Source: a virus. Taken from it: a DNA stretch of 54,968 bases. A model generated the notes under the pieces. It saw nothing but the letters and a program-made list of their open reading frames with translations. It had not been told where the DNA came from and searched no databases. How positions within the stretch are numbered: the stretch's first letter is position 1; every line of letters starts with the position of its first letter. A program made the translations under genes and the position numbers. Location: IMG/VR virus record IMGVR_UViG_3300026097_000029, positions 1 to 54,968 of that record; one strand, 5' to 3'. Below, piece after piece: positions 1 through 54,968 of the stretch.

Positions 1-135
1 TTAAAACAAGAAAATGAATATTTACAAAAAGAAATTAATAATTTAAGAAACCCTAACAAAAACGAAAAAACAATAGAAGATATAAAGCAAATGAATTTAC
101 TTTCGTTAATAAAATGGAAGTTAACTAAAAGTTAG
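1..135 (+). CDS. 3' part of a small lysine-rich hypothetical protein
   Basis: Frame 1 is open from the first base to the TAG at 133-135 and encodes 44 residues. The start lies outside the window. The visible part is rich in Lys, Glu and Asn and begins with a heptad-like stretch (LKQENEYLQKEINNL) that suggests a short coiled coil. It sits directly before an unpaired attC-like right arm (139-161), so it probably lies inside the loop of that hairpin. A matching 5' fragment begins at 54889. Direct joining of the two window ends does not keep the frame; one base would have to be missing. Function unknown. Confidence 0.5.
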   Translation, partial: LKQENEYLQKEINNLRNPNKNEKTIEDIKQMNLLSLIKWKLTKS

Positions 136-138
136 TTT

Positions 139-161
139 ATTTGTGTTATACATTGTTGTGC
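139..161 (+). repeat. attC-like right arm and R' box (left half is at the right end of the window)
   Basis: The arm contains TTATACATT followed by the box GTTGTGC (155-161), like the right arms near 51.9, 52.3, 52.6 and 52.8 kb. No left arm precedes it. Its reverse complement matches the unpaired left arm at 54851-54870 (shared ACAACA..G.ATAACA.AA). The first 15 bases from the box (155-169) are the reverse complement, 14 of 15, of the end of the same cassette at 680-694. Confidence 0.6.
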
Positions 162-197: not shown

Positions 198-680
198 ATG
201 AAAGACAAAAAAGTATTAGATGTGTGTTGTGGACCAAAAGGAATGTGGTTCGATAAACACGATGAAAGGGCATTGTATTTAGACAAGCGTAGAGAAACGC
301 ACATTGATACATATCCTTGCGGAACAAAAACAAATATAATTGACCCTGATATTATAGGTGATTTTACGGATATTAAACAACCTGCCAATTCCTTTTGGCA
401 CGTGGTTTTTGACCCACCACATATTAAGCAAAACAATACAAGCCAAATAACAAAGAAGTACGGAAGTTTACAAGGAGATTGGCGTGAGATGTTAAAACAA
501 GGATTTAAAGAATGTTTTAGAGTGCTAAAGCCAAATGGTACACTAATATTTAAATGGAATGATTGTAGGTTTCCTGTAAAAGAAATACTTGCTTTAACAG
601 ACCAAAAACCACTTTACGGACATAAAAGCGGCAAGAAAATGGGAACGCATTGGATATGTTTTATAAAAGACGAAGCGTAG
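198..680 (+). CDS. Small class I SAM-dependent methyltransferase (cassette gene)
   Basis: The protein has 160 residues. A glycine-rich SAM-binding motif I, VLDVCCGPKGMWF, lies at residues 6-18 and a catalytic motif IV, FDPPH, at about 71-75, followed by a WREMLKQGF helix and a VLKPNGTLIFKW strand typical of the Rossmann methyltransferase fold. Motif I precedes motif IV and no target-recognition domain is visible, so the substrate (DNA, RNA or protein) cannot be told; DNA adenine or cytosine is the likely guess for a phage. The gene fills one cassette: the box before it (155-169) and the box after it (680-694) are reverse complements. The stop codon touches the second box. The upstream sequence is A-rich with no Shine-Dalgarno. 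Confidence 0.8.
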   Translation: MKDKKVLDVCCGPKGMWFDKHDERALYLDKRRETHIDTYPCGTKTNIIDPDIIGDFTDIKQPANSFWHVVFDPPHIKQNNTSQITKKYGSLQGDWREMLKQGFKECFRVLKPNGTLIFKWNDCRFPVKEILALTDQKPLYGHKSGKKMGTHWICFIKDEA

Positions 681-687
681 CTATTAT

Positions 688-762
688 GCACAACATTTCT
701 GCGATATGAAACGTTGCCTAGTGGGACTGAGTAAATGCAATGTTTTATATTGCGTGTTGGTT
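688..762 (+). repeat. attC-like site 1 (75 bp)
   Basis: The site has R'' GCACAAC (688-694) and R' GTTGGTT (756-762). The arms GCGATATGAAACGTTGC (701-717) and GCAATGTTTTATATTGC (737-753) pair along their whole length apart from a few G-T or mismatched positions. The left side carries about five extra bases beside the outer box, like the extrahelical bases of integron attC sites. The loop is short. Confidence 0.65.
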
Positions 763-794: not shown

Positions 795-1442
795 ATGTAC
801 AGAAGTAAAATAGAACTCCATAACGTTGATTGTTTGCCGTTTATGAAGCAATGCGTGGATAAACAATTTGACCTAGCAATAGTAGACCCACCTTATGGTA
901 TTGCACGCGCAGGACAAACAGAAACCTTTACAAAAAATCCTAAACATAAGCGCAAAGCACACGATCAAAAAAACTGGGATAATGCAATACCTAGCCAAGA
1001 GTATTTTGATGAGCTAGAACGTATAAGTAAGAATCAAATTGTTTGGGGTGCGAATTATTTTGTTGCCCATTTAAAACACGGAACAATGGGTTGGGTTGTT
1101 TGGGATAAAGGACAACACGGATTAAGTATGAGCGATTGTGAATTGGCTTACAGTAGCTTTAATAGAGCAACACGAATACTGACGTTTAATAGATGTCTAA
1201 TAGCTCAAAAAGGTGGAAGTATACACCCAACCCAAAAGCCTGTAGAGTTATATAGGCACTTACTTAATAAATATGCAGAAAAGGGCAACAAAATATTTGA
1301 TTCGCACTTGGGAAGTGGAAGCATTGCCATTGCTTGTGATGACTTAGGTTTTGATTTAGTAGCTACTGAAATTGATAAAGACTACTTTGAAAAGGCAAAC
1401 AAAAGGATAGACCAACATAGAAGGCAACAAACCCTTTTTTAA
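795..1442 (+). CDS. DNA N6-adenine/N4-cytosine methyltransferase (cassette gene)
   Basis: The protein has 215 residues and matches the N6_N4 DNA methyltransferase family. The catalytic motif IV DPPYG (31-35) comes first, then a variable recognition region, then IHPTQKPVELYRHLL and motif I-like FDSHLGSGSIAIAC, and a final TEIDKDYFEKA that binds SAM. This permuted order is that of beta-class DNA methyltransferases. No endonuclease gene lies beside it, so it is an orphan enzyme, most likely shielding phage DNA from host restriction. The start at 795 is the first ATG in frame; an ATG at 788 is out of frame. The downstream box (1449-1455) partly complements the box before the gene (756-762). Confidence 0.9.
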   Translation: MYRSKIELHNVDCLPFMKQCVDKQFDLAIVDPPYGIARAGQTETFTKNPKHKRKAHDQKNWDNAIPSQEYFDELERISKNQIVWGANYFVAHLKHGTMGWVVWDKGQHGLSMSDCELAYSSFNRATRILTFNRCLIAQKGGSIHPTQKPVELYRHLLNKYAEKGNKIFDSHLGSGSIAIACDDLGFDLVATEIDKDYFEKANKRIDQHRRQQTLF

Positions 1443-1448: not shown

Positions 1449-1480
1449 AACCAACACCGAATAACAGAACCTTACAAATT
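1449..1480 (+). repeat. Truncated attC-like site (left half only), array end
   Basis: The R'' box AACCAAC (1449-1455) is followed by ACCGAATAAC, also found after the last complete box at 54855. No right arm follows before the minus-strand late genes. This is where the cassette array stops against the phage backbone. Confidence 0.45.
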
Positions 1481-1500
1481 AAATTTAACAAACTTAAGCA

Positions 1501-14590: not shown

Positions 14591-14593
14591 AGG

Positions 14594-16170: not shown

Positions 16171-16186
16171 ATAACTAACATTTATA

Positions 16187-16194
16187 CAAAGATA
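16187..16194 (-). promoter_or_regulatory. -7 box TATCTTTG, start of the tail operon
   Basis: TATCTTTG on the minus strand is a perfect TAnnTTTG element, 16 bases before the ATG at 16170, so the leader can be only about ten bases. It begins three bases after the T-run of the capsid terminator. The same arrangement with the same flanks (TTTTGTATCTTTGTATAAA) recurs at 25520-25527. Confidence 0.7.
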
Positions 16195-16196
16195 CA

Positions 16197-16234
16197 AAAT
16201 AAAAAAAAGGACAACCGAATTAACGATTGCCCTT
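16197..16234 (-). terminator. Rho-independent terminator after the capsid gene
   Basis: On the minus strand, AAGGGCAATCG (16234-16224) pairs with CGGTTGTCCTT (16217-16207) over 11 bp with two G-T pairs and a six-base loop, followed by a run of T. It sits 23 bases after the capsid stop codon. Confidence 0.8.
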
Positions 16235-16256
16235 AATTTAACTAATCTATAAACTA

Positions 16257-17582: not shown

Positions 17583-17588
17583 AATTTG

Positions 17589-27792: not shown

Positions 27793-28275
27793 TTATTTTT
27801 GTAGATTACTAAATAGTTTACTTATAATGTTGTTTAAGGTATCTCTTATTCCGTGTAACAATTTAGAAATATAATCTGTATTTTCTATATTTTTACGCTC
27901 TTTTATGCTAAGAATATTTGTAATACTACTTATACCTTCTGATACAACAAGTATTTTAAGGACTATTTCTACAAGCCATTTAAAATCGAAACCTAATACA
28001 AGAGCAACCAAAGCTAGTATCATAGGTATTAATAAAATAGTAGACTTGCTTACAATACCCCAAAGCAACACCTTAAATGAAAACTGAAGCTTGTTTATGT
28101 ATAAGGATTTAATAACACCTAAAATAGTGTCTATAACCATTAATACAGATAGAATTTTAACTATATCTAAATCTATTTGTAGAAACGCAAAAACAGCATA
28201 GATAACCATTTTAATTTCATACCAATAATCTGCTAACCAATCTGTTTTTTGTGCTACGTAATCTACAAATTTCAT
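27793..28275 (-). CDS. Phage holin, holin_4-like, 160 aa
   Basis: The protein has 160 residues with three or four hydrophobic helices: about 20-40 (MVIYAVFAFLQI), 38-58 (IVKILSVLMVIDTILGVIKS), 70-95 (LLWGIVSKSTILLIPMILAL) and 98-115. The D-T-I-L-G-V-I-K-S segment and the following G-I-V-S-K fit the toxin-secretion/lysis holin family (phage_holin_4). It precedes the amidase gene by three bases, a typical holin-endolysin pair. Confidence 0.8.
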   Translation of the reverse strand: MKFVDYVAQKTDWLADYWYEIKMVIYAVFAFLQIDLDIVKILSVLMVIDTILGVIKSLYINKLQFSFKVLLWGIVSKSTILLIPMILALVALVLGFDFKWLVEIVLKILVVSEGISSITNILSIKERKNIENTDYISKLLHGIRDTLNNIISKLFSNLQK

Positions 28276-28665
28276 CTATCTATATTCTTTTGCTGTTTTT
28301 TTTATTTCTTTTTCTGTTCTAATCCATTCAATACAATGAGATTTGCCTTTAACCCACATAGGAACATCTGCTGCATCTACTAAAAATCGTATTACATGAC
28401 CTAAGTAGTTTAGCTGTTTAGCTTTGTATCCTTTACCTAATACGCTACTTATAGGCTCTCCAAATATACCAAATAAATTAACGTGTTTTTTTAATAAACA
28501 AATATTTAAAGTTACACCAAATAAATAATTACCAAAAACATTAATATTAAAAGACTTTCTAAACGCACTATTTTCGCTTCGTTTAGTTGCTAATCTTACA
28601 ATAGTATCTACTACACTAATTAAAGTAAATATTTGTAATGCTAATATGTTCAATATCCATCCCAT
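28276..28665 (-). CDS. Hypothetical membrane-associated protein, 129 aa
   Basis: The protein has 129 residues with a hydrophobic N-terminal helix (WILNILALQIFTLISVV) and a weaker one near 45-60 (NYLFGVTLNICLL). The remainder is basic with a C-terminal charged tail. It lies directly before the holin gene and overlaps the upstream gene by one base, so a lysis accessory role is possible. No family recognised. Confidence 0.55.
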   Translation of the reverse strand: MGWILNILALQIFTLISVVDTIVRLATKRSENSAFRKSFNINVFGNYLFGVTLNICLLKKHVNLFGIFGEPISSVLGKGYKAKQLNYLGHVIRFLVDAADVPMWVKGKSHCIEWIRTEKEIKKTAKEYR

Positions 28666-29042
28666 TACTCTACTAATTCCAAGTCATCGCTTGTTGTTAT
28701 GCCATAGTTGTTAATTACACCTTGTATAGATTCTTGGTCTATAACAAACTTAGCCATTTCAAAACATCTTTGCTTAATGTTAGCTATTAAATTTGTATCG
28801 CTTTCCAAAGGTGGTAAAGCTTGCTCTAGTTGCTCTAATTCTGCGTAAGCAAATGTTTTAGGCTTAAAGTTATCTAGCTTTGCTATTCTGCCTTTACTAT
28901 CTATAAAATAGTACAAACCGCTTGCTTGTATGTTTGGTTGTACTTTGTTTAAGTTTATCTTTAAATAAACTATCGCATCTTCATTAGAGCGTGTATGCTC
29001 ATTAGGTACGTTTTTAACTGTTTTTGTTCTTAGTGTTATCAT
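28665..29042 (-). CDS. Hypothetical protein between tail fibre and lysis genes, 125 aa
   Basis: The protein has 125 residues and no membrane segment. It has strand-like segments (DAIVYLKINL, GLYYFIDSKGRIAKL) and a helical C-terminal half, and resembles small baseplate or fibre accessory proteins in size only. It overlaps the LamG-domain fibre gene by four bases. Function unknown. Confidence 0.5.
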   Translation of the reverse strand: MITLRTKTVKNVPNEHTRSNEDAIVYLKINLNKVQPNIQASGLYYFIDSKGRIAKLDNFKPKTFAYAELEQLEQALPPLESDTNLIANIKQRCFEMAKFVIDQESIQGVINNYGITTSDDLELVE

Positions 29043-30508
29043 ATTGTTGTTCCGTTTCCGTTGTTATATAAATCGCTGTCTTGCTGCGCTGTTGTTTGTC
29101 CATTTATAAATGATACTTCGTCTATTTCTCCATTAAGAAATAGAGATGTTGATCCTGATTCTCCTAAAACAATAGCATTGTTAACACTTGGTTTATTTGT
29201 AAACGTATAAACTCCCTGTATCTGATTGTTTATTTTTAAAACAAAATCAATACCGTATTTTATTTGTATAAAATAATAATTACCAACAACATAGTTTAAT
29301 GTAGATAATATATCTTGAACACTACCATTATCTCCAAAAACAGCTCTTATTTTATTATTGTTTCTAAATTGGATATAAGTTTTTAGTTCTTCAAAATTAG
29401 AACCTACATCTTGTCCTATAATGTTACAAGTTTGATTTGAATTAGCCTTTGCCCAAAAAGATAATGTGAAGTTGTTGCTATCAAAATCATTATAGATAGA
29501 AGTAGGTAAATCCACCCTACCATCAACCCCATCAAAACTATAAGCATTGCCTATTTTACCAGTCACACCTTGCGTAACACCGCCAAACAAAGTACCGTTA
29601 TAAGAGTTAACTACGTCAATAGCATTTCCGCTTGTTTCTTCTAGCTTGTAGTAAGCAACTGCATTTTGGAATAGTGCTGGTGTTGTAGTTGTCGTTACAT
29701 TAATTGTGTTGGAATAATCTGAAATATTAAAATACTCATCTGCTAAAATGATTTTGACTTTGTATGTAGTTAGTTGTTGTAATTTAATAACATAAGGTTT
29801 ATTTACATCGGTTATATTTTGAAAAAAACCATTTACAAAAACTAAAGCATATTTTAAAGTATTAACGTGGGTAGGTTGCGTAAAGCCTAACTCGACATAA
29901 GTACCACCTATTGTTGTGGCTGATAAGTCTGTTACTGCGTTTGGTTTTGTATTTGCGTTAGGATTAGATGTATCTTTGTACAAAACGCTACCACCGTTGC
30001 CTATCAACTCTGTAATATCGCCATCTCCTGTTGTAGCTGAATCAATAATTAACTGCCCAAATGTTGAGCTTTCAAAAACCCTGTCGTCGCCTGTTGTACT
30101 ACCTATACTTGTAGCATTAGGAAAAGCCATAATTGCACCACCTAATCTCCTTAATGCAAAATCTTCTATTGCAGTTATAGCAGGCAAATAAATAAATATA
30201 TTTTGGTTTACTTGTAAAGATGCTCTATTGTTTATGCAATATCCTTCTAAATCTACAAAATAAGTCATATTTTTATCTACAAAATTTACCCCGATTGATA
30301 ATTCATAATTAGTTTCAATTCTAAAAGCTACATTTTCTCCATTAATTTCAAAATCTTTTATATCACTTGTAGAATAATTACTTGAATTTGCAAAATAACT
30401 AATAACATCTGATTCATTAGTAACTATTGATGCCACGCCACCCCAAAAAGTATTAAACCTTTTACCGCTTATATAATTAGCAAAAAAATTTAAAGATGGA
30501 CTTCTCAT
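29039..30508 (-). CDS. Tail fibre/adhesin with Fn3-like and LamG domains, 489 aa
   Basis: Residues about 195-275 form a fibronectin type III-like domain (KPNAVTDLSATTIGGTYVEL to NTINVTTTTTP). Residues about 285-485 form a LamG/concanavalin-like domain: VAYYKLEETSGNAIDVVNSY, GVTGKIGNAYSFDG, FTLSFWAKAN and GEIDEVSFING are its usual landmarks. LamG domains bind sugars, so this is a receptor-binding candidate. The N-terminal 190 residues include Ala/Leu-rich turns resembling a short repeat domain (TAIEDFALRRLGGAIMAFPN). It is the last fibre gene before lysis. Confidence 0.75.
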   Translation of the reverse strand: MRSPSLNFFANYISGKRFNTFWGGVASIVTNESDVISYFANSSNYSTSDIKDFEINGENVAFRIETNYELSIGVNFVDKNMTYFVDLEGYCINNRASLQVNQNIFIYLPAITAIEDFALRRLGGAIMAFPNATSIGSTTGDDRVFESSTFGQLIIDSATTGDGDITELIGNGGSVLYKDTSNPNANTKPNAVTDLSATTIGGTYVELGFTQPTHVNTLKYALVFVNGFFQNITDVNKPYVIKLQQLTTYKVKIILADEYFNISDYSNTINVTTTTTPALFQNAVAYYKLEETSGNAIDVVNSYNGTLFGGVTQGVTGKIGNAYSFDGVDGRVDLPTSIYNDFDSNNFTLSFWAKANSNQTCNIIGQDVGSNFEELKTYIQFRNNNKIRAVFGDNGSVQDILSTLNYVVGNYYFIQIKYGIDFVLKINNQIQGVYTFTNKPSVNNAIVLGESGSTSLFLNGEIDEVSFINGQTTAQQDSDLYNNGNGTTI

Positions 30509-32259
30509 TATTCTAAAGTATTTATTCTTAATCTATGTACGCCTGTCTCAACGCTACCTAAATAAGCCATATCAAAATCGTTAACTATTTCAACAACTCC
30601 TAAATAAGCATTTAATGTTTGCCCTGTTGCAGCTACAAATGTAATTGTTCCTATTGCTCCATCTGCTCTTTCGTAAGATGTGTCTGTGATATTTGTATCT
30701 ACTGTAACTGTTACATCGCTTGTTCCGTTGTCTATTAAAACTCTACGCCCATTTTGAGATAAACCACTTACTAAGTCTGATGTGTTTAAATTTATTACCG
30801 ATGCACTTAAATCTGCTGTTACTGTTGTTGTTTCAACGTCAGGTTTATTCTTAATAAAGTCATCAGCAGTATTGTCTGTTTGATTCCAATCAGACTGCAC
30901 ATTTACTTCTGCTCCAGCTTCAATGCCATTTAATTTATCTCTTTCAGATTGTAAAAACTTTCTAGTATTAACACCATCAGAAATATCGTCTAAAGTATCT
31001 GTAGGTTTTTGAAACTCATCTCCTGTAGCGTACTTGTTTGTAGTTCCTTCTGTTACAATATCGGTATCTAAAGCTATATTTTCAAAAAGACCATTAGCAT
31101 CTTTGTATCTTAAAATATCTCCTTCTGTAGGATTATTTATTTTAACACCTTCGTCTTTATTTATGTTTGAGCCTATTGAAGGTCTTACAAATATAACTCC
31201 TTGTGTTGCGTGAGAGTTTATTACCGCTGCAACTTGTACTATATTGTTTGGTGCTTGTGGTATGTTTGTTTGAAACTTTCCTATGTCTGTTGTAGATGCG
31301 TATAAAATATCTCCTTCCGAAAAAGAGCTTGTATTTAAACCTCTTATTCTACCAAACCATAAAACCTTACCTTCTTCTCCATTTGCTATATCTTCTGCTG
31401 TTACTCCCATAAATAAAGAGCTTACAAAACTTCCGTTTGCTAAAAAAGGCTCTATAAGTAATCTTCCACTTGCTCCTAAAGTTCCTGCAAATCTTACAGG
31501 TATTCCTTTTGCTATTGTAGCGTTAGATTGATTTTTTACAGGATAAAACACATCTCCGCCAATTACTTGTTTGTATCCATTAAGATACACTTCTAATGCC
31601 TTATCGTTTTCGTTAAAGAATGTTGTACCTTCTGTTGTAGGAGTGTTTGTTGGGGTAACATCAAACTTTACGTATCCTGCTTCTAAACCAAACTCTCCTA
31701 ATTCTACGTCTTGTGTTGCTCCTGTGTAAGGTACTTTTTCGTTTAAAGATGTTCTTGATATTATTTGTATATCGGCAGATGTAAGTGCAGTAGATTCTGT
31801 ACCAAAACTATTATTTACCGCTAAATCGTTCAACGTCCAAACTATAGAATATTCTCCGTATGTTGCCGAAAAAAAAGGTATTTCTGATTTTTCAAATACT
31901 ACATCTGGTTTTATAGTGTTTGTTGCTGCTGCACAAAAATCTTCTGCACCTAAAGATTGTAAATCAGTTAAAGGGTCTGTTATATCTACTCTTACAGGCT
32001 TGTTTGGAGTTTCTGAAACACTACCGCCACCACTAGATAAAACTACCCAATTATCTGAGTTAGTCCTATCTAAACCATTCCACTTATAATGCTCTTTACT
32101 TTCTTCTGAGTAAACAATAATACCTTCATAGATATTGTCTAACTGTGCTGAGTTTAATAAATCTGCATCGTTAATAACAACTTCTCTGTCGTCTGGTGGT
32201 GTTGGGTTTTGTATCTTAAAACCGCCTGGTACATTAAATGCTCCGTTGTACTTTGCCAT
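30508..32259 (-). CDS. Tail fibre protein, 583 aa
   Basis: The opening MAKYNGAFNVPGGFKIQNP and IYEGIIVYSEESKEHYKWNG are typical of phage fibre adaptor regions. Residues about 235-370 form the domain common in phage fibres that begins YPVKNQSNATIAKGIPVRF and ends VIFVRPSIGSN. A trimerisation-type region follows (GINTRKFLQSERDKLNGIEA-like, residues about 415-445), then a beta-rich C-terminus. It shares its one-base overlaps with both neighbours, so the fibre genes form one transcript. Confidence 0.7.
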   Translation of the reverse strand: MAKYNGAFNVPGGFKIQNPTPPDDREVVINDADLLNSAQLDNIYEGIIVYSEESKEHYKWNGLDRTNSDNWVVLSSGGGSVSETPNKPVRVDITDPLTDLQSLGAEDFCAAATNTIKPDVVFEKSEIPFFSATYGEYSIVWTLNDLAVNNSFGTESTALTSADIQIISRTSLNEKVPYTGATQDVELGEFGLEAGYVKFDVTPTNTPTTEGTTFFNENDKALEVYLNGYKQVIGGDVFYPVKNQSNATIAKGIPVRFAGTLGASGRLLIEPFLANGSFVSSLFMGVTAEDIANGEEGKVLWFGRIRGLNTSSFSEGDILYASTTDIGKFQTNIPQAPNNIVQVAAVINSHATQGVIFVRPSIGSNINKDEGVKINNPTEGDILRYKDANGLFENIALDTDIVTEGTTNKYATGDEFQKPTDTLDDISDGVNTRKFLQSERDKLNGIEAGAEVNVQSDWNQTDNTADDFIKNKPDVETTTVTADLSASVINLNTSDLVSGLSQNGRRVLIDNGTSDVTVTVDTNITDTSYERADGAIGTITFVAATGQTLNAYLGVVEIVNDFDMAYLGSVETGVHRLRINTLE

Positions 32260-36516: not shown

Positions 36517-38100
36517 ATGAGTAACATTAAAGAAGTTCGTTTCGGCTTAGATGCTAGGTCTGAAATTTTAAAAGGAGTAAACACAGTAGCAGATGCTGTA
36601 AGCTCAACTATGGGTGCAAAGGGTAGAAACGTGTTAATTGAAACACAAGGCGGTTTACCTAAAATAACAAAAGACGGAGTTACCGTATCCAAAAATATTT
36701 TTTTAGAAAGCCCATTAGAATCTTTAGGTGCAGAAATTATTAAACAAGCTGCTGAGAAAACCGTAGAAGATTGTGGGGATAGTACAACTACTACTGTTGT
36801 ATTAGCTAGGGAGCTAATGAATTTAGCAGAAGTAGAAGTAGAGAAAGGTGCACACCCTATCTTACTTAAAGAAGGTATAAGTGATGCGGTTAAACAAGTT
36901 ACAAATCATTTAAAAAGCAAAGCATTAAGGCTTAAAAAAAGAGACTACAATAATGTAGCTAGAATATCTGCAAACAACGATAAAGAATTAGGAGACACAA
37001 TAGCTAAAGCATTTAAGTTGGCAGGAAAAAATGGCGTGGTTACTTACGAGCGTTCTATGGACGAAATTACATCTGTAAAGAAAAGCAATGGTTTAAAGAT
37101 TGACAGGGGTTTACTTAATCAGTACATGGTTACTGATGAGAAAACCAACCGAATGGAATTAGAGAATCCTTACATTTTTGTTTGTAATAAAAAAATAGAA
37201 TCATTCCAACAAATTATCCCTTTGTTTAAAAAATCTAAACAAGAAGATAAATGGATTTTGATTATAGGCGAAATGGAGCGAAGTGTAGCTAACCTATTTA
37301 CTGCTAACATTATAAAACACAAACTAAAAGTAAGATTTGTAGATGCTCCGTCTTTTGGGAGTAAACGTAATGCTTTAATGGAAGATATAGCTACTGCCAC
37401 AGGCTCTATCTTAGTAAAGAATGAAGGTACAGACAATATTGAATCTGTGTGTTTAGATTACTTAGGAACTGCAAAAGGATTTACTTGTTCGGACAAAGAA
37501 TCTTTTTTAGATGTAGACAAAGAAAGATATCAAGACGCTATTGATTTAAAAGTTAACGAGTTATTAGAATTAAAAAAGAACACTAAAAAAAGCATAGCAT
37601 CTAAGTTTTTAGATGAGCGTATTGCTAAGTTAAGCTGTTCTATTGCTACCATACAAGTAGGTGCTATATCTGATGTGGAGTTAGAAGAAAAAATAGACAG
37701 AGTAGACGATGCAGTTAACGCAACTCAATCGGCAATAGAAGAAGGTGTTTTAGTTGGTGGTGGTTTAGCGTTGTTTAATGCTAGCTACAAAGTTAGTTAT
37801 AGTAATGATAATCATAAAGATTATAAGTTAGGGTTTATGATAACCATAAACGCAATCAGGAAACCCATAAAGCAAATACTTACAAATGCAGGTGCTAATG
37901 TAGACGATGTTATTTCTGAAATAGAAAACAATCAAGACGAAAACATAGGATACGATGTGCTATCTAACAAAATGGTAAATATGCTTAAAGCAGGTATTAT
38001 TGACCCACATAAAGTAATACGATGTGCATTGCAAAACGCAGCAAGTGTTTCGCAAACATTTTTATTAACAGACACATCAATTAATATAAAAAGAGCGTAA
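36517..38100 (+). CDS. groEL: Phage-encoded GroEL chaperonin, 527 aa
   Basis: A group I chaperonin of near-standard length. ATP-site motifs are visible: TMGAKGRNV (31-39, bacterial TLGPKGRNV, so Pro is Ala), ITKDGVTV (50-57), GDSTTTT (87-93, bacterial GDGTTT with Gly changed to Ser) and DRVDDAVNAT near 395, which holds the hydrolysis aspartate. The apical and equatorial segments VGGGLALF and IDPHKVIRCALQNAASV are also conserved. The usual Gly-Gly-Met tail is absent; the protein ends IKRA. It is likely a barrel folding chamber for capsid proteins. Phage GroEL is known from Pseudomonas phage EL. The order here is groEL then groES, the reverse of bacterial operons. Confidence 0.93.
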   Translation: MSNIKEVRFGLDARSEILKGVNTVADAVSSTMGAKGRNVLIETQGGLPKITKDGVTVSKNIFLESPLESLGAEIIKQAAEKTVEDCGDSTTTTVVLARELMNLAEVEVEKGAHPILLKEGISDAVKQVTNHLKSKALRLKKRDYNNVARISANNDKELGDTIAKAFKLAGKNGVVTYERSMDEITSVKKSNGLKIDRGLLNQYMVTDEKTNRMELENPYIFVCNKKIESFQQIIPLFKKSKQEDKWILIIGEMERSVANLFTANIIKHKLKVRFVDAPSFGSKRNALMEDIATATGSILVKNEGTDNIESVCLDYLGTAKGFTCSDKESFLDVDKERYQDAIDLKVNELLELKKNTKKSIASKFLDERIAKLSCSIATIQVGAISDVELEEKIDRVDDAVNATQSAIEEGVLVGGGLALFNASYKVSYSNDNHKDYKLGFMITINAIRKPIKQILTNAGANVDDVISEIENNQDENIGYDVLSNKMVNMLKAGIIDPHKVIRCALQNAASVSQTFLLTDTSINIKRA

Positions 38101-49479: not shown

Positions 49480-49610
49480 GCATAACAGCAAATAATATGG
49501 GTAGTGGCGATAAAAAGGGTTAACAGTATCGTATGCAAACCAATAACCCCGAAAAACACGGTGAAAGTCCAGTTGTTAGGCATACTTAGCCATTACCTAT
49601 ATTTATTATT
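49480..49610 (+). repeat. attC-like site 2, degenerate, long loop
   Basis: The R'' is GCATAAC (49480-49486). The arms ATATGGGTAGTGGC (49495-49508) and GCCATTACCTATAT (49589-49602) pair with two mismatches. The right box is degenerate (ATTGAATG). The 80-base loop contains a GGTGAAAGTCC, a phrase also found in group II introns, but no intron is present. Confidence 0.5.
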
Positions 49611-49627
49611 GAATGTCTTTTTTAATT

Positions 49628-49760
49628 GCATATAACGTTGAGTATATGGCAAGTAGCCGAGATAAAGCACAAACGATGCAAAAAGTAAACAAATTTAATA
49701 ACAGGCAGATGGTTCCAAAAAGACCCGTAACACGGCTATTTGCTATATACAGTGTTATGT
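49628..49760 (+). repeat. attC-like site 3 (133 bp)
   Basis: The R'' is GCATATAAC (49628-49636) and R' GTTATGT (49754-49760). Arms TATATGGCAAGTAGCCG (49643-49659) and CGGCTATTTGCTATATA (49733-49749) pair over 17 bp with two mismatched or wobble positions, and the left side has extra bases next to the box. It is preceded by a very short gene-less unit. Confidence 0.65.
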
Positions 49761-49773
49761 GGCGTTTTTAATT

Positions 49774-50016
49774 ATGGAAGTAGTAGATTTTAGTAACAGA
49801 TTATTTCACGATATACCAACACAGGACAATCCTGCTTACGGGAGTGAAGAGTGTATAATGATTGTAAAGGATAGCCAAAGACAAGCTTTATTTGCTGTAC
49901 TACATATTGAACCCGTAATAGACCCAATGGAAGACGAATCTGTTACTAAAATATGTGAGGTGTATAAACTTAATAATGCTATTAAGATTGCTAAGTGGTT
50001 CGCAAATGCCACATAA
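49774..50016 (+). CDS. Hypothetical cassette protein, 80 aa
   Basis: A longer frame begins with GTG at 49759 inside the right repeat arm, so the ATG at 49774 is taken: MEVVDFSNRLFHDIPTQDNP, then a beta segment AYGSEECIMIVKDSQRQALF and a C-terminal helix. Acidic, no known domain. The box before it (49754-49768) complements the box at its end (50003-50017), and its stop codon lies inside that box. Confidence 0.6.
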   Translation: MEVVDFSNRLFHDIPTQDNPAYGSEECIMIVKDSQRQALFAVLHIEPVIDPMEDESVTKICEVYKLNNAIKIAKWFANAT

Positions 50017-50065
50017 CATCTCGGTGCTATGAAATCGTTTTAATGTTTTATAGCACGTGTTACCC
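50011..50065 (+). repeat. attC-like site 4 (55 bp, compact)
   Basis: The R'' ACATAAC (50011-50017) overlaps the stop codon of the gene. Arms CGGTGCTATGAAA (50022-50034) and TTTTATAGCACG (50046-50057) pair with an 11-base loop. R' is GTTACCC (50059-50065). This is the size of classic integron attC sites. Confidence 0.65.
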
Positions 50066-50163
50066 ACTGGTGCGACTTTAAAGAGCAAACTTTTATTTAA
50101 GAACTGAAACTTTTTCTTTTCTTTTTTGAGCGTTGGCAAATATTAATTTGAAAAATTAAAATT

Positions 50164-50970
50164 ATGGAACAAATACAATTACACAAAGGATATTGCGAAG
50201 ATTACTTTACCCAAATACACGATAAAAGCGTAGATATGGTTCTTTGTGATTTACCTTACGGAACAACAGATTGTAAATGGGATAGTCAAATAGACTTGAC
50301 TTTTCTATTTAGCGAATATTACAGAGTGTTAAAAAAGAACGGTGCAATAGTGTTATTCGCTTCACAGCCCTTTACATCTACTTTGGTATGTGAACACGTT
50401 AAATACTTCAAGCACGAGTGGATATGGAAGAAAAACGCAGGAAGTAATTTTGGAACTGTAAAATACCAACCATTTAAAGAACACGAAAGCATACTTGTAT
50501 TTAGTAATGGAGGTGGGAAGGTTTGTTACAATCCTATAATGGAAGAACGTGCTGAAAGTGGTAAAGCGAGAGTAAAGACCAAGGTTAATTATAATACAAG
50601 TGCAGAAGTTTACGGAAGTGGTGGATTAATAGGCGATAAAGGAATAAGTAGTAATAGACCTGATTTAAGATACCCAAGTAGTGTACAGAAATTTAATAGA
50701 GAGCGAGGGTTACACCCAACACAAAAACCACTTGACTTGATAGAGTACTTAATTAAAACTTACTCTAACGAAGGCGAATTGATACTTGATAATACAATGG
50801 GAAGCGGTACTACTGGTGTTGGTTGTGTAAATACAAATAGACGATTTATAGGTATTGAGTTAGAAGATAAGTATTTTTCTATTGCAGAAGAACGAGTAAA
50901 AAAAGCGTGGGAAGAAAAAAGAAAAGAAAAAGATTTACAAGCACAAACTTTATTTGGAACACAGAAGTAA
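50164..50970 (+). CDS. DNA N6/N4 methyltransferase with DLPYG motif (cassette gene), 268 aa
   Basis: The protein has 268 residues. A catalytic motif IV DLPYG (29-33, DPPY variant with Leu) comes first, then a variable region, HPTQKPLDLIEYLIKTYS and motif I-like LDNTMGSGTTGVGC, with FIGIELEDKYFSIAEERV at the C-terminus. Family and order match the second methyltransferase at 795-1442, but the two share only these motifs, so they are separate genes. It is not paired with a nuclease. Its leader holds GAGCGTTGGCAAATATT, related to the flanking repeat of the gene at 54008. Confidence 0.9.
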   Translation: MEQIQLHKGYCEDYFTQIHDKSVDMVLCDLPYGTTDCKWDSQIDLTFLFSEYYRVLKKNGAIVLFASQPFTSTLVCEHVKYFKHEWIWKKNAGSNFGTVKYQPFKEHESILVFSNGGGKVCYNPIMEERAESGKARVKTKVNYNTSAEVYGSGGLIGDKGISSNRPDLRYPSSVQKFNRERGLHPTQKPLDLIEYLIKTYSNEGELILDNTMGSGTTGVGCVNTNRRFIGIELEDKYFSIAEERVKKAWEEKRKEKDLQAQTLFGTQK

Positions 50971-50978
50971 GCACTTGT

Positions 50979-51220
50979 TGGTAACACTATGGTTATATGA
51001 GTAGTTTATTTACGGATTTAAAAATAGAAATATGAAAACAGTTTTAATACATTATAAAAAATGGGTAGAAGCACCGCACCCAATGTTAGACGGTGAATTT
51101 ATTAAATGTAGCCAAGTGGTCGAAGTATTAAAGCTGACTGACCTAAATGATATGTTTAAAAATATAACTAAGATTGAAATACTAAGCGAGTAAATGAATT
51201 ACTTATATGACGTGTTGTGT
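50979..51220 (+). repeat. attC-like site 5 with an ORF in its loop (242 bp)
   Basis: The R'' is TGGTAAC (50979-50985) and R' GTTGTGT (51214-51220). Arms TATATGAGTAGTTTATTTAC (50994-51013) and GTAAATGAATTACTTATAT (51190-51208) pair with few mismatches. The loop of about 176 bases holds the 53-residue ORF at 51032-51193, whose stop codon is already inside the right arm. Confidence 0.6.
51032..51193 (+). CDS. Short ORF inside a hairpin loop, 53 aa
   Basis: A frame of 53 residues: MKTVLIHYKKWVEAPHPMLD, then GEFIKCSQVVEVLKLTDLND and MFKNITKIEILSE. It has a good ATG context after an A-rich leader. It begins in the loop of site 5 and ends in its right arm, so it moves with the hairpin. No domain recognised. 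Confidence 0.5.
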   Translation: MKTVLIHYKKWVEAPHPMLDGEFIKCSQVVEVLKLTDLNDMFKNITKIEILSE

Positions 51221-51253
51221 GTAGTACGGGCAAATAAGCAAAAACTTTGAATT

Positions 51254-51802
51254 ATGAAATTAGATTTAATTACAAACAAAGCAGAAAAAACAACTGCACG
51301 AAATGAAAATGATGAGTTCTATACTCCAAATTATGCAATAGAGCCTTTGTTAAAATATTTAAAACCTAATAGTTATGTATGGTGTCCTTTTGATTTGGCG
51401 AAAAGTAACTTTGTAAAACTATTAGTTGCAAATGGGCATAAGGTTTTAAATACGCACATCGAAAACGGTTTTGACTTTTTTGAATATGAGCCACCAAGTG
51501 AAATTGATTACATAATAAGTAATCCGCCTTACTCACTAAAACATGAAGTATTTAGCAAACTGTTTGAATTAGGAAAACCATTTGCAATGCTTGTAGGTGT
51601 TGTTGGATTGTTTGAAAGCCAAAAAAGATTTACAATGTTTGCGGACAATGATTTTGAAATAATGTATTTTGATAAGCGAGTAAGTTACTTTAAGGATTAC
51701 GCAGACGTAAAGCCAAAACTTAACCCACCGTTTTCGAGTGTATTTTTAACAAAGGATATACTACCTAAACAAGTTGTTTTTGAAAGGATAACTAAAAAGT
51801 AG
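51254..51802 (+). CDS. NPPY-type methyltransferase (cassette gene), 182 aa
   Basis: The protein has 182 residues. Motif IV ISNPPYS (near residues 98-104) is that of gamma-class DNA adenine methyltransferases of the M.TaqI type. The SAM-binding motif I seems weak (VWCPFDLAKSNFVKLLVANG at about 42-61, with a Pro-Phe-Asp in place of Gly-x-Gly), so activity should be tested. Annotations of such phage proteins as sugar-phosphate nucleotidyltransferase are common and doubtful. The box before (51214-51228) and after (51801-51815) it are reverse complements in 12 of about 14 bases. Confidence 0.7.
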   Translation: MKLDLITNKAEKTTARNENDEFYTPNYAIEPLLKYLKPNSYVWCPFDLAKSNFVKLLVANGHKVLNTHIENGFDFFEYEPPSEIDYIISNPPYSLKHEVFSKLFELGKPFAMLVGVVGLFESQKRFTMFADNDFEIMYFDKRVSYFKDYADVKPKLNPPFSSVFLTKDILPKQVVFERITKK

Positions 51803-51808
51803 TATTAC

Positions 51809-51902
51809 TCACAACGGTAGGTATATGGTTAGTGCGCCTACCACAAACGATTGAATTAAGCACTAACATAACTTGGCGCATTAACTATATACATTGTTGT
51901 GT
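51809..51902 (+). repeat. attC-like site 6 (94 bp), best-formed arms
   Basis: The R'' TCACAAC (51809-51815) and R' GTTGTGT (51896-51902) are near-perfect complements. Arms GTATATGGTTAGTGCGCC (51821-51838) and GGCGCATTAACTATATAC (51875-51892) pair over 18 bp with two wobbles; the left side has two extra bases next to the box. Confidence 0.7.
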
Positions 51903-51920
51903 GCCGTTAATTTTAAGGAT

Positions 51921-52184
51921 ATGTTGAATATAGAAGCGGAAGGTTTTGTATTTAAGTATGAAGAAAAAGGCAATCATAACAAAGCCTACACAAAGCCGTA
52001 CACAAATCACTCAAGAGGGTATTCGGATAGAATGATTGATGTTATTTATAATGACAAAAACAATTGGGTATTAATTTGCCAAGGAGATGATGAAACCCCT
52101 TGGGGTGATTGGGAAACAATGTTTGCTGGACAAATACAAAACCAACAAGATTTTAAAAAAGTGCTTGAAATGGTCATCGTTTAA
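51921..52184 (+). CDS. Hypothetical cassette protein, 87 aa
   Basis: The longer frame begins with TTG at 51894 within the repeat arm, so the ATG at 51921 is taken, with an AAGGA-like signal just before it: MLNIEAEGFVFKYEEKG, then SRGYSDRMIDVIYNDKNNWV and CQGDDETPWGDWETMFAGQI. Acidic, Trp-rich, no known domain. The boxes before (51896-51910) and after (52181-52195) it are complementary in 14 of 15 bases. Confidence 0.6.
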   Translation: MLNIEAEGFVFKYEEKGNHNKAYTKPYTNHSRGYSDRMIDVIYNDKNNWVLICQGDDETPWGDWETMFAGQIQNQQDFKKVLEMVIV

Positions 52185-52188
52185 TGGC

Positions 52189-52319
52189 ACACAACGGCTC
52201 AGTATAAAAAATCGTAGCGGATAGATACCGCTTAAATGTCAAATTATAAATAACTTAATAAAATGGAACAAACATCGAATAACAGAAACCCCCGCTATGT
52301 TTTTTATACATTGTTGGCG
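52189..52319 (+). repeat. attC-like site 7 (131 bp)
   Basis: The R'' is ACACAAC (52189-52195) and R' GTTGGCG (52313-52319). Arms GTATAAAAAATCGTAGCGG (52202-52220) and CCGCTATGTTTTTTATAC (52292-52309) pair nearly fully. An in-frame ATG (52263) lies in the loop and reads out through the right arm. Confidence 0.65.
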
Positions 52320-52463
52320 GTAGTGCTTTTAATTACTGCCTGTTCGGGTGATAGCGAAAGTAGCTCACAATTTTCTGAATGGCTTAAACAACCGATAACA
52401 GAAATGAGCATATTTGAATTGATATTGGTTGTAGGTTTTGTTGGACTGCTTACACGGTCTTAG
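52263..52463 (+). CDS. Possible lipoprotein, 66 aa, starts in a hairpin loop
   Basis: From the ATG at 52263 the frame reads MEQTSNNRNPRYVFYTLLAV then VLLITACSGDSESSSQ. LLITACSG is a short lipobox, so the mature protein would begin at Cys27, with a Ser/Asp tail and a C-terminal membrane helix (FELILVVGFVGLL). The first 20 residues lie in the loop and right arm of site 7; a GTG start at 52323 would leave only the lipobox part. Which start is used is open. Complementary boxes flank 52313-52476. Confidence 0.45.
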   Translation: MEQTSNNRNPRYVFYTLLAVVLLITACSGDSESSSQFSEWLKQPITEMSIFELILVVGFVGLLTRS

Positions 52464-52469
52464 CATTAC

Positions 52470-52590
52470 CGCCAACGTAATTGTATATGGTGCGTTGCAT
52501 CACAAAATTTAATTAATAAAAATAAAGATAATGGAAGTAGAAGAACGATATAAAAAACCACAAGGCAATGCACTATATACATTGTTAGCA
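52470..52590 (+). repeat. attC-like site 8 (121 bp)
   Basis: The R'' is CGCCAAC (52470-52476) and R' GTTAGCA (52584-52590). Arms TGTATATGGTGCGTTGC (52482-52498) and GCAATGCACTATATACA (52565-52581) pair with few wobbles. An ATG at 52531 in the loop reads through the right arm into the following gene. Confidence 0.65.
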
Positions 52591-52740
52591 GCAGTTAAAC
52601 TTGCTTATGGGCAATACAAACTTGATGTGGACTACGTAAAAAATAAAAGTAATATATGGGAAGGGAAGCCATATAGTTGGGGATTAACTCATTGGGCAAT
52701 AGCAAAACATAGGTTCTATTGGTTTGTCATTAAACGCTAA
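52531..52740 (+). CDS. Hypothetical cassette protein starting in a hairpin loop, 69 aa
   Basis: From the loop ATG the frame reads MEVEERYKKPQGNALYTLLA and continues AVKLAYGQYKLDVDYVKNKS, ending with an aromatic stretch (HRFYWFVIKR). The YTLLA part lies in the arm and parallels YTLLAVV of the neighbouring cassette. Without the loop start, only a TTG in the box could start it. The boxes before (52584-52598) and after (52737-52751) it are complementary. Function unknown. Confidence 0.5.
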   Translation: MEVEERYKKPQGNALYTLLAAVKLAYGQYKLDVDYVKNKSNIWEGKPYSWGLTHWAIAKHRFYWFVIKR

Positions 52741-52744
52741 TTGC

Positions 52745-52809
52745 TGCTAACGGACGAGTATATGCGAAGTGCTGACGATAGGAAGCATTGCGTATATACA
52801 TTGTTAGGT
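52745..52809 (+). repeat. attC-like site 9 (65 bp, compact)
   Basis: The R'' is TGCTAAC (52745-52751) and R' GTTAGGT (52803-52809), a GTTRRRY box. Arms GTATATGCGAAGTGCT (52758-52773) and AGCATTGCGTATATAC (52784-52799) pair with a 10-base loop and extra bases on the left side. It resembles classic attC sites in size and layout. Confidence 0.7.
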
Positions 52810-52841
52810 GCAGTACGGTATTAATATAACAAAACTAAAAT

Positions 52842-53606
52842 ATGAAACAAACAGAATTATTCTTATTTGACAAAGTAGTGAACATTGACGGAGATGTAGC
52901 GAAATTCAAAAACCGAGAGATAAAAGCAAAAGAAATCTTTACTATACGTGAGATTGACAAGAAAATAGCTTACGCATTTATTAAACAATACCACTACTTA
53001 AAAGATGCTAAGTTCTTTGCAAAATATTCTTATGGACTTTATATTGATAATGTACTAGTTGGCTGCTCTACTTTTAGCAACCCACAAGGTATAAGTGCAA
53101 TGAAAAGTTGGTTTGGATTACCTAATAGCGACCAAAGTGTATTAGAACTTAGCAGACTGTGTATGTTACCTAAACTTAATGGTACAAACGCAACAAGCTA
53201 TTTACTTGGCAATAGTATGAAGATGCTAAAACAAAAGGAAGTTAAGGCTGTAATTACATTAGCTGATGATAGTAGGCACGTTGGAAGTATTTACCAAGTT
53301 TGCAATTTTAAATACTATGGCTTAACTGATAAAAAAACTGATTTCTTTTGTGCTGATGGTAGAGTGAACCCAAGAGGCAAAACAAAGGATTTAGAAGGTG
53401 TTTGGCTACCAAGAACACAAAAGCATAGATACGCTTTTTTATTGGATAAGAAAATGAATGTTTTGCTGAGTGAGAGTGAACGACCTACACTTGAAGATAC
53501 AAGCGAATATGATTGCTGTAACGGAACTAATAAGGTTTTTGATAAGCGATTTAATAAGCACTACACTTGCCCAAAATGCACAGGTGTAATTGAAGAACTA
53601 ATGTAG
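52842..53606 (+). CDS. Mom-like DNA modification protein with zinc-ribbon tail (cassette gene), 254 aa
   Basis: The protein has 254 residues. Its GNAT-like core has YSYGLYIDNVLVGCSTFSNP (63-82), ELSRLCMLP (102-110), LADDSRHVGSIYQVCNFKYY (140-159) and KHRYAFLL (194-201). This pattern resembles the Mom family of phage Mu, which converts adenine to N6-carbamoylmethyladenine and protects phage DNA. The C-terminal part has Cys pairs at 225-226 and 243/246 in a CxxC pattern (YDCCNGTNK ... YTCPKCTG), like a DnaJ-type zinc ribbon, absent from Mom itself. Boxes at 52803-52817 and 53605-53619 are complementary. Confidence 0.7.
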   Translation: MKQTELFLFDKVVNIDGDVAKFKNREIKAKEIFTIREIDKKIAYAFIKQYHYLKDAKFFAKYSYGLYIDNVLVGCSTFSNPQGISAMKSWFGLPNSDQSVLELSRLCMLPKLNGTNATSYLLGNSMKMLKQKEVKAVITLADDSRHVGSIYQVCNFKYYGLTDKKTDFFCADGRVNPRGKTKDLEGVWLPRTQKHRYAFLLDKKMNVLLSESERPTLEDTSEYDCCNGTNKVFDKRFNKHYTCPKCTGVIEELM

Positions 53607-53612
53607 TATTGC

Positions 53613-53640
53613 ACCTAACTGGTCGGTGATAACGCTAGTT
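53613..53640 (+). repeat. Truncated attC-like site (28 bp)
   Basis: The R'' is ACCTAAC (53613-53619) and the R' GCTAGTT (53634-53640) has C where T is usual. Only AACTGG/CTAGTT pairs remain, so the long arms have been lost. It is still the right box for the following gene, whose end box at 53922-53928 complements GTTAGTT. Confidence 0.5.
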
Positions 53641-53671
53641 GCGATGGATTAATAAACTAAAAATAAAAAAA

Positions 53672-53917
53672 ATGGATATAGATAAAATAGTAGATAGCAA
53701 AGTGATAACAATGACTAATTTAAGCGGTAAAAAATCAAAAGTGCTATTTCTTAAAAACGAAACTGAAATAGAAGCATTTAAAGAGCAATTAGCGTTATTA
53801 CGTGTTAGTTGCCAAAGGGAACAGTTAAAGGCGTTCGGTGAAATTATAGCACAAAAAATGCATAATGGAGAAGAATTCAATTTAACAAAAGAAGTAGAAA
53901 ACTTTATTAGCCTTTAA
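53672..53917 (+). CDS. Hypothetical cassette protein, 81 aa
   Basis: A longer frame begins with TTG in the box at 53639; the ATG at 53672 with its A-rich leader is taken: MDIDKIVDSKVITMTNLSGK, then KSKVLFLKNETEIEAFKEQL and a Glu/Leu-rich helix. Small, helical, no known domain. Its stop precedes the next box by four bases. Confidence 0.55.
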   Translation: MDIDKIVDSKVITMTNLSGKKSKVLFLKNETEIEAFKEQLALLRVSCQREQLKAFGEIIAQKMHNGEEFNLTKEVENFISL

Positions 53918-53921
53918 TTGC

Positions 53922-54833
53922 AACTAACGTATTGGTATATGGTTAGTGCCGTGTAAATAGCACAGACTTTTAAATTAATAAAAGAAGTAATAATTAAAAT
54001 ATTTTTTATGAGCGTGGGCAAAAAATATAAAGTAGTTGAAGTAACTTTAAATGATATAGAAGAATGGCTATTGTATAAGCACTATGCCAAAAGAAAATGC
54101 AATGTAATGTTTGCTTATGCTTTAGTTGATAATAATGAAATTATTGGTGTTTGTACTTTAGGTATGCCACCTACTCCATTTTTTAGTAAATTGTTTGATA
54201 AAGGGACTTACTTAGAATTAAACAGACTAATAACAAATGATGGTCTACCTAAAAATACACTTTCTTTTTTTGTCGCAAATATTTTAAATAAGATAGGTGA
54301 TTATGTGGTTGTTTCTTATTCTGACCCAAATAACGGACATAATGGATATATTTATCAAGCTACTAATTGGATTTATACTGGTGCAGGTAGGGTAAACCAA
54401 AAAGACAAAAGAGGTGTAAATAAGTTTTTTTACAATGGTAAAGAATACCACGAAAGGCATATACCAGAAACAATGTCAAGATTAGGATTTAATATAGATA
54501 ATGATAAAACAAAAAACGAAAATTGGATAAATAACGGTGGTGAGATAGTACCACAAAAAAGAAAACATAGGTATTTTTATATTTGCGGTAATAAAAGGTT
54601 TGTAAAAAAGAACAAGAAAATAATAGAAAATTATTTTGACATTTACAATTACCCAAAAGAAGAGAATACAAACTATGATGCAAGTTATATTGTAAAAAAC
54701 AAATATATAAAACCTAAATTGTTTTGATAAAAACAAAAGAGCGTGGGCAAAAAAATATTTTAATTATGGACAAACAGACACAAATTATTGAATTAAGCAC
54801 GGACTTAGGCATTAACTATATGCCGTGTTGTAG
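53922..54833 (+). repeat. attC-like site with a gene in its loop (912 bp)
   Basis: The R'' is AACTAAC (53922-53928) with left arm GTATATGGTTAGTGCC (53935-53950). The matching right arm GGCATTAACTATATGC lies at 54808-54823, with R' GTTGTAG (54827-54833). The loop of about 850 bases holds the Mom-like gene 54008-54727, which is bordered by direct repeats GAGCGTGGGCAAAAAATAT at 54010-54027 (18 of the unit) and 54739-54758 (one extra A). Confidence 0.55.
54008..54727 (+). CDS. Second Mom-like DNA modification protein (in a hairpin loop), 239 aa
   Basis: The protein has 239 residues. Its core has VMFAYALVDNNEIIGVCTLG (33-52), YLELNRLITNDGLPKNTLSF (68-87), VSYSDPNNGHNGYIYQATNW (102-121) and KHRYFYICG (186-194). 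The E-L-x-R-L, D-x-x-x-G-H-x-G-x-I-Y-Q and K-H-R-Y landmarks match the gene at 52842 and the Mom family; the closing zinc ribbon is missing. The two proteins are diverged, so they are not a recent duplication. The gene lies in the loop of a long hairpin, and its start lies in a direct repeat. Confidence 0.7.
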   Translation: MSVGKKYKVVEVTLNDIEEWLLYKHYAKRKCNVMFAYALVDNNEIIGVCTLGMPPTPFFSKLFDKGTYLELNRLITNDGLPKNTLSFFVANILNKIGDYVVVSYSDPNNGHNGYIYQATNWIYTGAGRVNQKDKRGVNKFFYNGKEYHERHIPETMSRLGFNIDNDKTKNENWINNGGEIVPQKRKHRYFYICGNKRFVKKNKKIIENYFDIYNYPKEENTNYDASYIVKNKYIKPKLF

Positions 54834-54855
54834 CATCGTTTTAATGTGCTACAAC
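54827..54855 (+). repeat. Gene-less minimal cassette
   Basis: GTTGTAGCA and TGCTACAAC face each other with 11 bases between, so the complementary end boxes of one cassette lie almost together and no gene can fit. The left arm of the next site follows (54851-54870). Confidence 0.5.
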
Positions 54856-54870
54856 ACCGAATAACAAAAC
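54851..54870 (+). repeat. attC-like left arm whose partner is at the left window end
   Basis: ACAACACCGAATAACAAAAC lacks a right arm in the window. It pairs with the reverse complement of 139-160 (about 14 of 17 positions after allowing one gap), like the other sites. This joins the two window ends. Confidence 0.45.
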
Positions 54871-54888
54871 ATTAAAAACATTAACCCT

Positions 54889-54968
54889 ATGAAACTACTT
54901 GAAAACGTTGCGGAAAGATATATTGAAAGTTCTAATAAAGGAGCAATAAATTATACAGATGAGCTTAA
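54889..54968 (+). CDS. 5' part of a small hypothetical protein
   Basis: From the ATG at 54889 the frame reads MKLLENVAERYIESSNKGAI then NYTDEL and runs off the window in codon 27. It lies in the loop of the end-spanning hairpin. Joined directly to base 1 it would meet TAA after one more residue; with one missing base it would run on into the 44-residue frame at 1-135. Confidence 0.5.
   Translation, partial: MKLLENVAERYIESSNKGAINYTDEL

Follow-up and report, generated by a model that had tools for sequence, protein, structure and literature searches.

What is an integron-like cassette array doing in a phage genome that has no integrase, and what could move its genes? The question is raised by the IMG/VR virus record IMGVR_UViG_3300026097_000029, analysed here over its whole length of 54,968 bases (the window), in which single plus-strand genes are separated by hairpin-forming inverted repeats from about position 49480 to the record end and, provided that its two ends are joined, as far as about position 1500. 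A preliminary description, made from the letters alone, had proposed integron attC sites and circular cassettes, shuffled by an integrase supplied in trans. Here we report attC-like sites, a cassette logic in their boxes and, in related phages, exchange at those boxes; the system is not an integron in the strict sense, however, and its phage units are mirror images of integron cassettes. We regard the locus as probably an integron-type cassette array without an integrase of its own, carried by a tailed phage, composed of hairpin-gene units and served by an IntI-like enzyme of the host.

Thirteen junctions (J0 to J12; Table 1) were recognised, in keeping with the dozen or so inverted repeats first described, but good hairpins are found at only seven of them. 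A generic hairpin finder, which requires the left spacer to be long and the right one short, returned six sites on the plus strand (J1, J2, J4, J6, J7 and J11), all inside the array, none on the minus strand of the window, and none or one in each of six shuffled sequences; the seventh, J5, was found by the covariance model R1 described below. The extra unpaired bases noted earlier in the left arm are real, though the finder also demands them. All seven sites carry outer boxes of the form RYYYAAC...GTTRRRY (box ends of J1 and J6-type sites were assigned by eye), and the two boxes within one site derive from different cassettes and pair only partially. The extrahelical single bases expected in the L arm of an attC site are missing: the stems run for 12-18 (nearly) uninterrupted positions, bulge-free in the six finder sites, with a possible bulge, read by eye, in J5. 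Terminators were set aside as an explanation because the hairpins, as read by eye, are not followed by a T run.

The cassette logic lies in the boxes on either side of each gene. At variable positions 4-12, the leading box of a gene and its trailing box give 77 complementary matches out of 108 over 12 cassettes, whereas 100,000 re-pairings average 41.3 and never exceed 68; the observed score was lowered by a wrongly placed leading box at J8, which in its correct position, 53634, agrees with its trailing box save for a few bases. Nine of the 12 cassettes match at six or more of the nine variable positions, and bases 1-10 are fully complementary in six. The two boxes had been described as reverse complements of each other; the three pairs then quoted exist, but each agrees at 14 of 15 bases, with G against T at base 11, a combination present in 9 of the 12 cassettes. 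As expected of attC sites, the complementary ends in the window belong to one and the same cassette, and their pairing would be restored in a circle.

By sequence, the window hairpins are members of a family that occurs on phage contigs and on Bacteroidota chromosomes. A strict consensus taken from the window sites matched genome contigs in 18 stretches, every one of them from Bacteroidota as judged by record titles, and a looser one matched 79 viral stretches, some presumably by chance. The R1 model, built from 19 Bacteroidota genome sites, recovers five window sites, J7, J6, J4, J1 and J5, with E values from 2.6e-12 to 3.1e-5, and J0 (0.34) and J11 (0.4) come next. Since the seed pattern was taken from J1, J4, J6 and J7, the most independent support comes from J5 and from the exact ends. 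In phages R1 has 113 matches, spread over 81 sources that include the window, and it locates four sites in Polaribacter phage P12002L; it has no match in class 1 integron loci. Across a wider set drawn from finder sites in phages and bacteria, same-gene boxes agree at 130 of 243 phage positions and 178 of 279 bacterial positions, where shuffling reaches at most 118 and 133, respectively.

Sister phages show precise gain and loss of units. Around their arrays, P12002L and P12002S share 99% identity; P12002S has one additional unit of 914 bases, whose 600 flanking bases align without a mismatch, and a second block has been swapped between two AA↓C points. The fit of the 914-base unit needs a join within 3 bases of the C of AAC, and mismatches climb farther away. 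A canonical cut, at G↓TT in the box on the right, was assumed at first but rejected: the first P12002L/S event agrees with AA↓C in the left-hand box, not with G↓TT, and the model of the unit was therefore changed to a hairpin plus its downstream gene, as the P12002L/S join shows. Ten Freya phage records were available, with ends read for seven (Freya_1, 2, 5, 6, 8, 9 and 10) and starts for three (1, 2 and 5). Over 13,979 bases, Freya_1 shows no difference from the six other ends read; 842 bases at one box in Freya_2 are missing from Freya_1, and Freya_5 has 902 extra bases between the last box and the integrase gene, both extra units having 0 mismatches in about 500 bases on either side. The Freya_5 unit sits at the box beside the integrase gene; nothing attI-like was identified in the window. 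The comparison of related genomes suggested in the preliminary description thus yields whole-unit gain and loss in P12002L/S and in Freya_1, 2 and 5, but in the window's own lineage it reaches only one, identical relative.

The portal protein of the window phage is 49% identical to that of Flavobacterium elemo phages, and 86 of the 87 records with portal matches are named after Flavobacterium, Cellulophaga, Tenacibaculum or Maribacter (the other is unclassified); given this kinship, its host is likely a member of Flavobacteriia. Two portal-related phages, elemo phage MT497071 over its first 50 kb and MW202828 over the whole record, are without sites of this kind. Neither a scan with one protein nor a megablast of 25 kb against phages returned relatives of the window phage; scans with two other proteins returned one contig. 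It comes from another sample and, as fetched, matches the window at 100% over 1485-17594 and 28042-31508. This contig stops at 1485, the array edge, as if the array were variable or hard to assemble. Across the joined record ends, the open reading frame (ORF) has no clean continuation when read by eye, so bases are possibly missing at that join.

Which way does a unit face? With hairpin direction set by the spacers and not by genes, the longest ORF between sites points the same way as the hairpin in 27 of 28 and 27 of 27 phage cassettes; in bacterial cassettes it points the opposite way in 25 of 27 and in 29 of 31. These paired counts overlap in the phage loci and so are not independent: one uses R1 sites in multi-site loci, and the other, which also gave the wider box counts above, uses all finder sites scoring at least 26, with duplicate box pairs removed. 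An attC site lies 3' of its cassette gene, but in phages the hairpin precedes the gene in 27 of 27. The phage unit being a hairpin plus its downstream gene, phage cassettes are therefore mirror images of bacterial ones.

The hairpin strand folds better than its complement at all 7 window sites and at 51 of the 55 family sites, because stem positions 7-8 and 12-13 hold G.T wobbles with G on the left and rarely the opposite arrangement. This better-folding strand is non-coding in bacteria and coding in phages. Three canonical attC sites show little strand difference in folding at the parameters used. An ORF starting in the loop and reading through the right arm occurs in 16 of 49 long-loop phage hairpins, in 3 of 49 on the other strand, and in 4 of 76 bacterial hairpins. 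Where the start codon lies in the loop (52263 and 52531 in the window; the 16 phage hairpins), the right arm is translated, often as ..YTLL.., as if the hairpin were a leader.

What enzyme could act on such sites? The earlier statement that the window holds no tyrosine recombinase is correct: PF00589 has no match anywhere in the record. A search of 16 other phage records, fragments among them, left 14 without a match; neither P12002L nor P12002S has one. In bacteria, the hairpins accompany a recombinase other than a recognisable IntI, with an IntI match above cut-off in none of the 18 genomes bearing the strict hairpin pattern. A first set of 15 loci, selected by the pattern and with a recombinase that is a closer relative than Xer, has R1 sites in 12, against none of five Xer loci; two of its loci (L139 and L145; 3 of 36 R1 matches) depart from the usual orientation. 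The second set comprises 20 Flavobacteriaceae loci chosen by recombinase alone and picked from the recombinase matches for room on the contig. Here R1 matches in 13 of the 20 and in none of 15 control windows, and all 43 matches lie in recombinase loci, on the 3' side of the gene and on the opposite strand; the generic finder has sites in 16 of 20 recombinase loci versus 3 of 15 controls, and one site in one of the five Xer loci. Four empty loci (L203, L204, L205 and L217) lie on contigs that stop 164-950 bases past the recombinase gene, as if the arrays broke assembly. Of 149 genomes of the Aestuariivivens family (Flavobacteriaceae), 97 contain the recombinase at E up to 1e-90, a hand count of rows by best E that includes the centre genome, G008. 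With PF00589 missing from the window and most other phage records and this recombinase so widespread, supply of an integrase in trans, as first proposed, is plausible.

In an alignment read by eye, the IntI-specific (I2) domain is missing from all 15 bacterial relatives and from the Freya recombinase and present in IntI1 and Vibrio IntIA. The enzyme beside the bacterial arrays thus lacks the domain that defines IntI, so these are not integrons in the strict sense. The family is nearer IntI (150-190 bits) than Xer (103-137) in a comparison of profiles that rest on 2 and 3 sequences; in a tree of 22 recombinases the deep forks are unsettled, and IntI and Freya are unplaced. There is a likeness to XerA-type enzymes: one bacterial recombinase (L136) passes the NCBIfam model NF040815 for site-specific tyrosine recombinase/integron integrase (242.6 against a threshold of 220 bits), another (L143) just misses it at 219.1, the Freya enzyme fails at 146.2, and the best structure match of the L136 type is XerA (PDB 5hxy). 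Unlike XerA-type enzymes, the bacterial proteins here stand at cassette arrays, carry N-terminal extensions and mostly end in an SPLD-like C-terminal motif, which by eye is present in at least 11 of 15 and in none of three Xer proteins.

Freya_1 has one PF00589 match, and its recombinase adjoins the cassette units. In blastp it scores higher with all 15 bacterial family members (99-141 bits) than with three Xer (61-89) and two IntI proteins (58-61), but its profile score is Xer-like, and it is therefore at best a divergent relative of the bacterial family. The Freya phage paper interprets integrases of this sort as indicating a temperate lifestyle; the words integron, cassette and attC are absent from its main text. 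A tyrosine recombinase of Cellulophaga phage phi13:2 (L051 2177-3478), about 1 kb from a hairpin site, was left uncounted, with only 26 bits to the family.

The array genes include two Mom-like and two N6/N4 methyltransferase genes above the Pfam cut-off and two further methyltransferase-like genes below it, and the natural reading is that the cassettes would form a changeable anti-restriction gene set. We propose that a mobile unit consists of a hairpin, the one gene behind it and the trailing box of that gene, C-G(N4-5)-hairpin-GTTR-gene-YAA. The coding strand, as a single strand, would fold into the hairpin, and a tyrosine recombinase would cut between AA and C of the box at the long-spacer end; the unit would leave as a circle in which the boxes of the same gene are re-paired, and would enter at another AA↓C box. 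The enzyme would most likely be host-derived, an IntI-like recombinase without the IntI-specific domain that is common in Flavobacteriaceae and would there serve chromosomal arrays of the same hairpin family. Units in the window's own lineage may move in this way as well, the gain to the phage being a changeable gene set, mainly of anti-restriction genes.

Several observations weigh against this proposal. No exchange is seen in the window's own lineage, where the sole relative found is identical and ends at 1485, and 6 of the 13 junctions (J0, J3, J8, J9, J10 and J12) are poor, being degenerate, half sites or occupied by a gene in a very long loop. Strongly matching boxes occur in only 9 of 27 cassettes of the wider phage set. 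Freya hairpins reach only E 0.04 with R1, and the Freya recombinase scores 183.6 bits on the family profile, within the Xer range (same-genome Xer proteins, 189-198). A third P12002L/S event breaks in left arms and was not counted as box exchange, and several shared phage cassettes break at GTT rather than AA↓C, behind differing hairpins: the Mom cassette of the window (52842..53606) and locus L050 share 144 bp at 91.7% beginning exactly at the GTT box, and P12002L and L037 share a gene from exactly the GTT box onward (97% over 407 bp). The simple AA↓C model alone leaves the GTT breaks unexplained; they fit a cut at the other box, and a shift of this sort, known for attC sites without extrahelical bases (PMC2727003), may lie behind them.

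The array could instead be a fossil, a cluster of attC sites lacking integron integrases (CALIN) whose cassettes, picked up in the past from other phages or from bacterial arrays, have stopped moving by site-specific recombination in the window phage. Such decay would suit a record without recombinase, the six degenerate junctions, and elemo phages and MW202828 without an array. We consider it unlikely: same-gene boxes still match closely in 9 of 12 cassettes, P12002 and Freya phages show recent turnover of units, and simple capture fails to explain the phage array because its cassettes are oriented differently from bacterial ones. Orientation also bears on whether the hairpins are messenger RNA (mRNA) elements, such as leaders or processing sites, with genes exchanged by ordinary homologous or illegitimate recombination. 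That the coding strand folds better in phages, that loop start codons are found in 16 of 49 long-loop hairpins versus 3 of 49 on the other strand, and that one P12002L/S difference breaks in the arms, away from the box, all suit an mRNA role, to which we nevertheless give little credence, as boxes are complementary across a whole gene, joins fall within a few bases at AA↓C, and bacterial arrays hold the same hairpins in the other orientation.

The enzyme might also be a canonical IntI of some hosts, with the I2-less recombinase irrelevant. IntI1 recombined P12002L_attC2 in E. coli (PMC9892861), a site not matched to a particular site of the present analysis. A canonical IntI is nevertheless very doubtful given the 0 of 18 site-bearing genomes above the IntI cut-off, the single complete Bacteroidetes integron, in Salinibacter ruber M1, reported with IntegronFinder 2 (PMC9024848), and the strong association of the hairpins with the I2-less recombinase.

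The preliminary description knew of no standard phage repeat that behaves in this manner, a statement superseded by Qi et al. 2023 (PMC9892861), where phage CALINs with methyltransferases, one in P12002L, were already published; 17 phage CALINs of at least two sites are given there, with HattCI matches in P12002L. Like the P12002L CALIN, the window array has DNA methyltransferase cassettes and no integrase; the P12002L sites fall in the R1 family, and a methyltransferase cassette shares DNA with the window. Unit turnover, a hairpin-first unit and an I2-less recombinase are without description in the portions of that paper considered here. Classical integrons share with our arrays the RYYYAAC/GTTRRRY boxes, the asymmetric spacer, AA↓C (G↓TT) joins, the tyrosine recombinase beside the bacterial arrays and, in these, the non-coding strand as the folding strand. 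They differ from them in the IntI-specific domain, missing from the bacterial recombinase here, in the position of the hairpin, which precedes the gene in phages, and in single extra bases where the stems found have G.T wobbles; R1 misses class 1 loci. Phage CALINs are thus known, while the mirror orientation, the I2-less recombinase and the wobble strand mark are apparently undescribed: searches of open-licence literature, mostly by titles and abstract starts, found no Bacteroidota integron without an IntI domain, no mirror-image phage cassettes and no wobble-pair strand mark.

Tentatively, and at a little short of an even chance, Bacteroidota may hold a second kind of integron, in which a common I2-less recombinase acts on hairpins and wobble pairs at set positions, in place of extrahelical bases, mark the active strand; phages would carry its mirror version, the hairpin serving as a 5' leader, often with the start codon, and the two pools would be separated by orientation. 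Integron integrases are held to have gained the use of folded single strands through the I2 helix, which no other protein is said to contain (PMC7790495). A common I2-less recombinase beside hairpin arrays (13 to 16 of 20 Flavobacteriaceae loci) makes this claim directly testable, and could represent the ancestral state or a parallel solution. Surveys based on IntI would miss such a system, which for phages would be a means to swap anti-restriction genes as units.

Table 1. Junctions and cassette genes of the array in the window
Feature	Position	Strand	Basis
J0, left array end, weak site	49480..49581	+	R1 E 0.34 over 49480-49614; boxes by eye
J1 hairpin site	49630..49760	+	R1 E 2.6e-5; finder 40.4
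Cassette gene, 80 aa, function unassigned	49774..50016	+	frame; slightly shorter-start form without Pfam match
J2 hairpin site	50011..50065	+	finder 24.4
Cassette gene, N6/N4 DNA methyltransferase	50164..50970	+	PF01555 108.6 bits
J3, long-loop site with 53-aa ORF (51032-51193)	50979..51220	+	boxes; no R1 or finder match
Cassette gene, EcoRI-methylase-like	51254..51802	+	PF13651 E 1e-5, slightly below cut-off
J4 hairpin site	51809..51902	+	R1 E 1.2e-7; finder 40.4
Cassette gene, 87 aa	51921..52184	+	no Pfam match
J5 hairpin site, start codon of next gene in loop	52189..52319	+	R1 E 3.1e-5
Cassette gene, 66 aa	52263..52463	+	no Pfam match
J6 hairpin site, start codon of next gene in loop	52470..52590	+	R1 E 7.4e-9; finder 37.4
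Cassette gene, 69 aa	52531..52740	+	no Pfam match
J7 hairpin site	52745..52809	+	R1 E 2.6e-12; finder 28.4
Cassette gene, Mom-like DNA modification protein	52842..53606	+	PF25680 96.5 bits
J8, degenerate junction	53613..53640	+	boxes only
Cassette gene, 81 aa	53672..53917	+	frame
J9, 900-base loop holding second Mom-like gene	53922..54833	+	boxes and arms by eye
Mom-like gene inside J9	54008..54727	+	PF25680 86.9 bits
J10, left part, and ORF start cut by record end	54849..54968	+	box 54849-54855
J10, right part, if record ends joined	124..161	+	leading box at 155; R1 E 2.9 only
Cassette gene, methyltransferase-like	198..680	+	PF01555 E 0.0024, below cut-off
J11 hairpin site	688..762	+	finder 35.8; R1 E 0.4 on inner part
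Cassette gene, N6/N4 DNA methyltransferase	795..1442	+	PF01555 60.8 bits
J12, right array end, half site	1449..1500	+	trailing box only

Two of the incomplete junctions, J10 (from 54853) and J12 (from 1453), both run on as AACACCGAATAACARAAC, which resembles an inverted right-hand hairpin end. Outside the array, the window encodes a GroEL chaperonin at 36517-38100 (phrog_5725, E 3.9e-129), which by annotation is also present in elemo phages and MW202828. The motif GAGCGT[GT]GGCAAA occurs three times in the window, at 54010-54022 and 54739-54751, flanking the Mom gene in J9, and at 50128-50140, before the methyltransferase gene at 50164; a similar stretch precedes the P12002L methyltransferase.

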